NCBI RefSeq assembly: GCF_013912375.1
Contig: NZ_JACETV010000004.1
Location: forward strand, 186,001-250,000
Reading direction: 5' to 3'
From: Emticicia sp. BO119
GTDB lineage: Bacteria > Bacteroidota > Bacteroidia > Cytophagales > Spirosomataceae
DNA length: 64,000 nucleotides
In this document: positions 3,301 through 24,482 of the stretch, one piece after another
Layout of the letters: every line of letters starts with the position of its first letter
Position numbering within the stretch: position 1 is the stretch's first letter
Notes under the pieces: model-generated
Databases searched by the model: none
The model's input: only the letters and a program-made list of their open reading frames with translations
Told to the model about the DNA's origin: nothing
Made by a program: the position numbers and the translations under genes

Positions 3301-3591
3301 ATGATTCCAAAATCTTTACTTATTCTAATTCTTATAATTATTATGATTTGGGGTTTTCGTGATTATTTTATTTATCAAACCAAAAAAAGGAATGAAAAAC
3401 TCAAAGCGTTACAAGAGTCTTATGATAATGCACTTAAAACCTTAAAAGAATCTTATGAAGCTGCGCTTAAATCTGAAGACAAAGCAAAAGCATTAGAAGC
3501 TGGGCGTAAATATTACTCCTTTAAGAGAAATGGGGAGTTAACTATTTATGATGAGCAAGCAATTACAAATGATTTAATGACAATGAAGTAG
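3301..3591 (+). CDS. Small membrane-anchored coiled-coil protein, 96 aa
   Basis: The N-terminus is a single hydrophobic helix (residues 4-20, Ile/Leu-rich). A charged helical region follows, containing two near-identical heptad-like units, ESYDNALKTLK and ESYEAALKSED, which suggests a short coiled coil. The C-terminus is polar (NGELTIYDEQAIT). The likely topology is inner-membrane anchored with a cytosolic or periplasmic helical tail. No family is recognised. Composition is AT-rich like the divergent neighbour at 2678, so the two may have arrived together (inference). Confidence 0.6.
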   Translation: MIPKSLLILILIIIMIWGFRDYFIYQTKKRNEKLKALQESYDNALKTLKESYEAALKSEDKAKALEAGRKYYSFKRNGELTIYDEQAITNDLMTMK

Positions 3592-23111: not shown

Positions 23112-23142
23112 TTTGCCAGAAAAAAATATTCTACTAAATTTG
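23112..23142 (+). promoter_or_regulatory. Promoter of the leu leader-leuA transcript
   Basis: TTTG at 23112-23115, a spacer of exactly 19 bases, then TAAATTTG at 23135-23142 match the Bacteroidetes TTTG-N19-21-TAnnTTTG consensus. Transcription would begin near 23149, about 18 bases before the leader peptide start. Confidence 0.78.
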
Positions 23143-23166
23143 TGTCCTTGGAAAATTCAAAAACAA

Positions 23167-23223
23167 TTGAAACAAACCGCATTCGCAATTTCACTTCTCC
23201 TTCTGCTCAGCTTTACAGTGTGA
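23167..23223 (+). CDS. leuL: leu operon leader peptide (18 codons)
   Basis: An 18-codon frame reads MKQTAFAISLLLLLSFTV from a TTG start at 23167 to TGA at 23221-23223. Codons 10-14 (23194-23208) are five consecutive leucine codons: CTT CTC CTT CTG CTC. It sits between a consensus promoter and a terminator in front of leuA, exactly where an attenuation leader belongs. The Leu run resembles a signal peptide core, but the frame stops at once and the RNA structures around it argue for a control peptide. The start codon is the weakest part, because no ATG is available in this frame. Confidence 0.75.
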   Translation: MKQTAFAISLLLLLSFTV

Positions 23224-23285
23224 GAAACGGAGACTTTGTATAAATCAAAAGCCCTTTCTTACACTTGGTGAGAAAGGGCTTTTTT
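23217..23285 (+). promoter_or_regulatory. Transcription attenuator of leuA (antiterminator and terminator)
   Basis: The terminator is AGCCCTTTCT (23250-23259) paired with AGAAAGGGCT (23271-23280). It is extended by CAC/GTG at the tip and followed by a T-run to 23285. The competing antiterminator is AGTGTGAGAAA (23217-23227), which pairs over 11 bases with TTTCTTACACT (23255-23265), including one G-U, and uses the 5' half of the terminator. The leader stop codon (23221-23223) lies inside the antiterminator arm. A ribosome finishing the leader would therefore block antitermination, while one stalled on the Leu codons would free it. A weak protector pairing, TTCTC C (23196-23200) with GGAGA (23229-23233), is possible. 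Confidence 0.8.
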
Positions 23286-23330
23286 GCGAGTAAAAGAAGT
23301 AGTAAAAATAACTAAACACCTCATTGAGCA

Positions 23331-24482
23331 ATGAGCCAAAAGATTTATGTTTTCGACACCACCTTGCGAGATGGAGAACAAGTTCCCGGTTGCCAGTTAA
23401 CAACCGATGAAAAGGTAATGATTGCCAAACAACTCGAAAAACTGGGTGTCGATATTATTGAAGCAGGATTCCCTATTTCAAGCCCGGGTGATTTCAAATC
23501 AGTTGTGGAAGTATCAAAAGCCGTAACAGAGCCAACCGTTTGTGCCCTGTCAAGAGCTGTAAAAGGCGATATTGAAGCCGCTGCAGAAGCGCTGAAATTT
23601 GCCAAACGTCCACGTATTCATACCGGGATTGGTGCGTCAGATATCCACATCAAACATAAATTTAATAGTACCCGAGAACAGATTATTGAACAGGCTGTTT
23701 CTGCTGTAAAACATGCCAAAAAGTTTGTAGAAGATGTTGAATTTTATGCAGAAGACTCAGGTCGTGCGAATTTAGAATTTCTGGCAAAGCTGACTGATGA
23801 GGTTATTAAAGCAGGTGCAACAGTAGTAAACCTACCTGATACAACCGGGTATGTATTGCCTAATGAGATGTTTGAGCGTATTTCATACATTATGAATAAT
23901 GTACCGAATATTGATAAAGCTATTATATCGATGCACAATCATAATGATTTAGGATTGGCTACTGCCAATACTATTGCTGGTATTCAGGCTGGTGCAAGAC
24001 AGGTAGAAGTTACCATTAACGGAATTGGTGAGCGCGCCGGGAACACCTCTTTAGAAGAAGTGGCCATGATTCTGAAAGTACATAAACTGGGGTATCATAC
24101 CAATATTGAAAGTACGCTTTTGTCTCCTTTGAGTAATCTGGTTTCTCAAACCATGAGAATGCCTGTACAAGCCAATAAAGCGATAGTAGGCCGGAATGCT
24201 TTTGCTCACTCTTCTGGTATTCATCAGGATGGATTCTTAAAACATACCGAAAACTATGAAATTATTAATCCGCAGGAAGTAGGGGTCGATAAGTCATTGA
24301 TAGTATTAACAGCCAGAAGTGGCCGCCATGCTTTAAAGCACCGCCTTGAAATGTTAGGCTATAAATTAGAGAAACCTGAATTGGATTATATTTATAATCG
24401 TTTCCTTGAATTAGCAGACAGAATTAAAGAAGTAAATGATAAAGACTTAGTAGTATTAATGAAAGAAACTGTTTTTGTATAA
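23331..24482 (+). CDS. leuA: 2-isopropylmalate synthase, short form without regulatory domain
   Basis: This enzyme condenses acetyl-CoA with 2-oxoisovalerate, the first committed step of leucine synthesis. The 383 residues cover the TIM barrel and linker: [13 protein letters not shown] at the N-terminus, [14 protein letters not shown], the metal-binding [15 protein letters not shown], and [15 protein letters not shown]. The next domain reads [16 protein letters not shown]. The C-terminal leucine-binding regulatory domain (about 110-130 residues in classical LeuA of about 500 residues) is absent. A homocitrate or citramalate synthase is an alternative, but the leucine-rich leader upstream favours leuA. 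A terminator follows and no leuBCD are adjacent. Confidence 0.9.

Follow-up and report, generated by a model that had tools for sequence, protein, structure and literature searches.

The leuA gene of Emticicia sp. BO119 is preceded by an element that is very probably a ribosome-mediated transcription attenuator sensing charged tRNA-Leu. This ribosome-mediated reading follows from the anatomy of the leader, its conservation in relatives, the covariation of its stems and a leader composition that matches the gene downstream; from these features we infer translation of the leader, stalling of the ribosome when leucine is scarce and a resulting change in read-through. The region holds the parts by which an attenuator is recognized: a short ORF carrying codons for the amino acid of the pathway, a terminator between this leader and the gene, and an antiterminator that excludes the terminator. 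A sequence-only reading had proposed a leucine attenuator in front of leuA, and the follow-up described here confirms the observation and supports the interpretation.

The mechanism is an old and known class, and attenuators of Bacteroidota have already been recorded; the leuA leader is a further example, and it belongs to a conserved leu/ilv set in the Spirosomataceae. Such control is thinly documented in Bacteroidota, and the set provides a concrete group of leader-peptide attenuators in this phylum. It makes three questions testable, namely how closely ribosomes follow RNA polymerase in Bacteroidota, whether sensitivity to tRNA charging governs the choice of control codons, and which compound an orphan EamA transporter carries.

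Anatomy of the leuA leader and its predicted switch

The window is the whole stretch of DNA analysed, 64,000 nucleotides in length (G000:C23:186001-250000), and lies in the organism's own genome, G000, a 6.57 Mb assembly. The features of the leuA leader are collected in Table 1. Far upstream of them, a tandem repeat with a period of 33 and 1.9 copies occupies window positions 3409-3471.

Table 1. Positions, within the window, of the features that make up the leuA leader region
Feature	Position	Strand	Basis
Bacteroidota-type promoter: TTTG 23112-23115, N19, TAAATTTG 23135-23142	23112..23142	+	sequence; box in relatives
Leader peptide ORF LKQTAFAISLLLLLSFTV, 18 codons; TTG 23167-23169, stop TGA 23221-23223	23167..23223	+	sequence; frame conserved
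Five Leu control codons in a row, CTT CTC CTT CTG CTC	23194..23208	+	sequence
Candidate 1:2 (anti-antiterminator) hairpin, 23196-23212 with 23217-23233	23196..23233	+	predicted fold
Antiterminator 5' arm AGTGTGAGAAA, overlapping the leader stop codon	23217..23227	+	fold, duplex energy, covariation
Antiterminator 3' arm TTTCTTACACT, lying in the 5' arm and loop of the terminator, so that the two stems exclude each other	23255..23265	+	fold, covariation
Intrinsic terminator: 14 contiguous pairs 23249-23262/23268-23281, 5-nt loop 23263-23267, T-run 23280-23285	23249..23285	+	fold, covariation
leuA, 2-isopropylmalate synthase, 383 aa, regulated gene	23331..24482	+	NCBIfam NF002086 equivalog

All parts of the sequence-only reading are found in the DNA where it had placed them. 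This holds for the promoter, with its TTTG and 19-nt spacer, whose name rests on the Bacteroidota promoter consensus, for the 18-codon leader with its five consecutive CTN codons, for the 11-pair antiterminator, which includes one G-U pair, and for the position of the leader stop codon inside the antiterminator arm. CTN codons form a minority of the leucine codons in 13 genes of the window (192 of 439), where TTA alone accounts for 159. An exclusive terminator ending in a T-run exists as well, but the 10 pairs ascribed to it were too few, the stem having 14.

Both alternative structures are more stable than expected by chance. Folded alone, the 43-nt terminator stretch reaches a z of -5.8 and the antiterminator stretch a z of -4.4, in each case with none of 200 shuffled sequences equalling it, and the duplex formed by the window's arm with the terminator is better than that of all 300 shuffles. 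A generic promoter/terminator scan reported 0 terminators in the region, which is a miss of its stem/tail rule. The prediction of the 1:2 hairpin is identical in 9/9 folded Emticicia sequences.

No Shine-Dalgarno sequence is seen for the Emticicia leuA leader, and Bacteroidota are said to make little use of such sites. The TTG start had been named as the weak point of the proposal; the window leader does start with TTG, but the 11 Emticicia genomes and G035 all share this codon and its frame. ATG is the start in the other 53 leuA leaders (the script picks ATG where both ATG and TTG exist). The initiator residue of the peptide is probably Met.

The downstream gene is identified as leuA, its product scoring 594.7 bits against NCBIfam NF002086 (cut-off 532) and showing 97% and 96% identity to its closest named relatives, those of Emticicia agri and Emticicia sp. 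C21. Since Pfam matches only the HMGL-like and HCS_D2 domains and no separate C-terminal domain, transcriptional control may matter more for this LeuA than feedback inhibition does. The protein is a short form (383 aa), and the NCBIfam match ends at position 384 of 516.

In the mechanism predicted from these features, transcription would start just past 23142 and a ribosome would initiate the leader at the TTG at 23167. With plentiful leucyl-tRNA, the ribosome would reach the stop codon within the antiterminator arm and mask the arm, so that the 14-pair terminator would form and transcription would end before leuA. With scarce leucyl-tRNA, it would stall at the five CTN codons, the arm would be free to base-pair with the terminator's 5' half, and RNA polymerase would continue into leuA. 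Given that a ribosome covers about 12 nt downstream (PMC4833913, partial text), the arm would be fully hidden when the ribosome stands at the stop codon, fully exposed when it stands at the first Leu codon, and hidden over 4 of its 11 bases when it stands at the fifth.

Two mutually exclusive stems could by themselves serve any sensor, and it is leader translation, the inferred part of the scheme, that ties them to the ribosome. A terminator/antiterminator switch under the control of a T-box, a riboswitch or an RNA-binding protein, with the ORF being incidental, is nevertheless very improbable. Of all Rfam families, among them the T-boxes and riboswitches, none scores up to its cut-off in the window or gives E <= 1 in the Emticicia leuA (L001) or ilvD (L196) leaders; this covers the T-box model itself. 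The amino-acid content of the leader ORFs, moreover, shifts with the downstream gene while the stop codon stays beside the arm, which fits a translating ribosome.

Conservation, covariation and distribution

The same layout upstream of leuA is common to 11/11 Emticicia genomes, and the Leu run is retained, with synonymous changes, in Emticicia relatives. The stems were aligned and tested on 24 distinct upstream regions that show the layout. In 22 of these 24 leaders, TAnnTTTG lies no more than 80 nt 5' of the leader's start codon, each time with a TTG or TTTG farther 5' at similar spacing. Relative to the first base of the leader stop codon, the best antiterminator arm begins at a position from -4 to +9 nt in all 24. 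The outcome that the sequence-only reading had named as speaking against it, no conservation of the Leu run or stems in relatives, was not observed: the run and both stems are conserved, with covariation.

The covariation support is strong for the terminator and weaker, that is modest, for the antiterminator. For the terminator, 95.2% of the cells are paired, changes on both sides occur at 9 of the 14 pairs, and 0/500 shuffles score as high on any measure. For the antiterminator, 83.7% of the cells are paired, 9 cells are changed on both sides and the covariation score is 0.178 against 0.132. Of five measures, four exceed all 500 shuffles, which ignore the relatedness of the sequences. The fifth, the number of pairs changed on both sides (4/12), is matched by 154/500 shuffles, and sliding the arm by -3 or +1 columns, two of the six slid positions, yields 5 such pairs, above the 4 of the true register. 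The energy of the arm duplex has a mean z of -2.8 over the 24 leaders; three of them are weak or negative, namely L006, where the duplex is weak, and L028 and L108, where shuffles do as well. The best arm found in L108 pairs mainly 5' of the terminator, and two other leaders (L015 and L102) contain just two Leu codons each.

The -7 box ends 4 nt 5' of the leader ATG in L024, L102 and L108, which belong to the genera of G011 and G157-G160. Given this spacing, transcripts in these genera may be nearly leaderless.

A covariance model, R1, was built from the 24 leaders, with no ilvD leader in training, and used to search 222 Spirosomataceae genomes. At the threshold relied on (E <= 9.4e-7), all 89 listed matches were examined; 65 lie before leuA, those of all 11 Emticicia genomes among them, 23 before ilvD and 1 has no assigned gene. 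Setting aside 23 training sequences, all of them leuA leaders that match by construction, leaves 66 matches (42 leuA, 23 ilvD and 1 unassigned). At E <= 0.001, matches occur in 142/222 genomes, and an order-wide search finds them in 123/292 genomes of Cytophagales; both tallies overstate the number of true elements, because matches near 35-47 bits include plain terminators. The element is therefore common, not universal, in Spirosomataceae, and it is dispensable, since 80/222 genomes of the family have no match to the model at E <= 0.001. Scanning and reading by eye found no leuA leader in six relatives that do possess leuA (L012, L013, L014, L019, L020 and L026); used alone, the scan overlooked three leaders that do exist, in L022, L025 and L029.

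Twelve loci were read in other Cytophagales families. Leaders rich in Ile, Val and Leu, followed by terminators, precede branched-chain aminotransferase genes in L293, L296, L298 and L299, where the naming of the enzyme rests on a score over the NCBIfam cut-off in L298, a score just under it in L299 and resemblance in L293 and L296. Ile/Val/Leu leaders stand before ilvD in L295 and L297, and a Leu leader before leuA in L279, a part of the R1 training set. A leader-like ORF lies at a contig end in L286, and another, in L292, is followed by a WD-repeat-like ORF, not by a branched-chain gene. The R1 matches in L294, L301 and L303 are plain terminators and were rejected.

At the class level, IlvD is matched in 41/148 genomes, and 29 upstream regions were scanned. 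A leader together with a terminator was found in one region, L278, which belongs to the same order, and in 0/26 ilvD-upstream regions from outside the order; an I/L/V-rich ORF without a terminator occurs in L258, L260, L261, L266, L269 and L272.

Leader composition and leucine codon choice

The case for the ribosome as the putative sensor is made most strongly by the way in which the leaders match their pathways. The 65 leuA leaders contain on average 4.42 L, 1.62 I and 0.51 V, with at least 2 Leu in each of them (4.19 L, 1.67 I and 0.45 V in the untrained ones), and the ilvD leaders 3.35 L, 4.09 I and 3.22 V. In all 15 genomes that have both kinds of leader among the 89 matches, the I+V content is higher in the ilvD leader than in the leuA leader.

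Leaders of this design occur at least three times in the window's own genome, before leuA, ilvD and the trp genes. Its ilvD leader, MSPNKVIIVPIILLLNK, is accompanied by an antiterminator and a terminator, with stems identified by eye, and runs from about 558213 of G000:C12 downwards to ilvD at 558054 (L196). The trp leader, on the minus strand of G000:C23 near 447987 (L234/L342), contains a Trp-Trp-Trp run; a terminator, an ORF of 115 codons and trpE come after it, and a Trp-Trp-Trp run upstream of trpE is present in 11/11 Emticicia genomes (L227-L237). R1 has 5 matches in G000 at E <= 0.001, three of which were examined. The match at G000:C1:1232768 (L159) was rejected as a terminator without a leader, the next ORF being 768 nt off. 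A script found no his leader with at least 3 His before hisG, a weak negative since its guess of the gene start was wrong at several loci, and reading the thrA upstream regions of three Emticicia genomes revealed no thr leader. In G000:C1 (L339), a terminator-like hairpin and T-run soon follow a promoter-like TATATTTG, with no visible leader, ahead of the gene for aspartokinase-homoserine dehydrogenase; L340 and L341, the Emticicia regions read for comparison, showed no such hairpin.

With a Lys followed by a hydrophobic Leu run, the leader also resembles a signal sequence, so that the ORF could in principle encode a functional, signal-peptide-like hydrophobic small protein unrelated to the terminator. 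This explanation is more improbable still than an alternative sensor, because little besides Leu is common to the leaders of other genera, the leader frame ends at the antiterminator, and the ilvD and trp counterparts carry Ile/Val or Trp in place of Leu.

The leucine codons of the leaders are also distinctive. CTN codons make up 263/287 of the Leu codons in the 65 leuA leaders (162/176 in the untrained leaders), as against 983/1799 in the leuA genes themselves (64 genes from these loci), and TTA and TTG together 24/287 as against 816/1799. CTA is enriched as well (45/287 in leaders vs 70/1799 in the genes), and CTT and CTC are favoured. Theory developed for Escherichia coli designates CUA as the best Leu control codon and UUG and UUA as poorer ones (PMC1183508, partial text). 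The avoidance of TTA and TTG in the leaders fits the prediction of selective charging for UUG and UUA; the dominant codons are CTT and CTC, not CTA.

Within the attenuator reading, the CTN bias might instead arise because the leader base-pairs with the antiterminator arm in the 1:2 hairpin, and not from sensitivity to tRNA charging. Native leaders do fold better than versions with their Leu codons redrawn at the frequency of the window genes (mean z -1.16, with z negative in 23/24), but the effect is small in most leaders, and CTA is enriched too, although it is expected to pair less with the purine-rich arm than CTC or CTT. Pairing in place of charging sensitivity is the less likely cause of the bias, but it may explain part of it.

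Known leaders and a possible branched-chain regulon

The leu attenuator of E. coli and Salmonella lies before leuA and comprises a Leu-rich leader peptide with consecutive CUN codons and mutually exclusive antiterminator and terminator stems. The Emticicia element shares the Leu-rich leader, the CUN run, the exclusive stems and the position upstream of leuA, but differs in its TTG start, the lack of a visible Shine-Dalgarno sequence, its Bacteroidota promoter, its use of CTT and CTC over CTA, and a LeuA with no match to a separate C-terminal domain. Rfam's Leu_leader (RF00512) finds nothing in the window at its gathering score and nothing in L001 at E <= 1. Bacteroid-trp (RF01692), described as a trp attenuator, likewise has no match at E <= 1 in the Emticicia trp (L342 and L227), leu (L001) and ilvD (L196) leaders. 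Two other Rfam hits below cut-off are taken as chance, McaS in L163 and Phe_leader in L293; the latter lies on the leader's own stretch and may reflect a remote resemblance. No leu or ilv attenuator in Cytophagales is described in the titles and abstracts found in the open-access literature, and Vitreschak et al. 2004 reportedly mentions Bacteroidetes/Chlorobi.

The leu leader of Salmonella uses CUA control codons (PMC1183508, partial text). Bacteroid-trp is also listed as a cis-regulatory motif of Bacteroidetes (PMC2864571, partial text). It concerns tryptophan, against leucine in the Emticicia leader. In Flavobacterium psychrophilum, strong clues of leader-peptide attenuation upstream of amino-acid operons have been reported, in the same phylum and of the same mechanism class, but in a flavobacterium, not a cytophagal species, and with no operon or amino acid named in the partial text (PMC9723704). 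A fully formed attenuator in this organism had been called notable by the sequence-only reading; the element is real, but clues to attenuation in a bacteroidete (PMC9723704, partial text) and the listing of Bacteroid-trp (PMC2864571, partial text) came before. The ilvD attenuator of Staphylococcus aureus, supported by mutants and reporters, likewise combines a branched-chain-rich leader peptide, rich in Leu and Ile, with a conserved terminator, but belongs to the Firmicutes, has an antiterminator that sequesters the U-tail and is combined with CodY (PMC5794164, partial text). The LEU element of Actinobacteria also places an ORF with Leu codons before leuA, but acts through a pseudoknot and pairing with the Shine-Dalgarno box and not through a terminator (PMC1262725, partial text).

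Regulation of this kind may extend to transport. In three genera, at L163 (G011), L172 (G015) and L345 (G020), a leader containing Leu and Ile and a terminator lie upstream of an EamA/DMT transporter gene (Pfam EamA), which suggests that this protein may be an amino-acid transporter of the branched-chain regulon; the layout was not seen at the more distant EamA homologues read, that of the window genome included. A broader picture, which we advance tentatively and consider a little nearer to doubtful than to probable, would be a home-grown branched-chain attenuation regulon of Cytophagales, comprising leuA, ilvD, ilvE in other families and the EamA/DMT transporter, independent of the proteobacterial leaders, avoiding TTA and TTG as selective charging predicts, initiated without Shine-Dalgarno sites and nearly leaderless in some genera. 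If it is true, the leaders would predict a branched-chain amino acid as the substrate of the transporter, and transcription and translation would have to be tightly coupled early in Bacteroidota transcripts.

A 16-bp palindrome near TAGCGAAWWTTCGCTA occurs 5' of ilvD, in Emticicia as well, and 5' of leuA in many genera other than Emticicia. It is likewise found before genes that NCBIfam names as gltB, a POT peptide transporter, malate synthase and pckA (L160-L175, L196-L215 and, in part, L015-L030). It was rejected as a part of the attenuator, the Emticicia leuA leader having no clear copy. The palindrome resembles an Lrp-like operator and is possibly one. With up to 2 mismatches in 17 genomes, its counts are similar to those of a reversed control in most (11 vs 9 in the window's own genome, and 13 vs 2 in G011), and in a few places two palindromes lie 109-242 bp apart.
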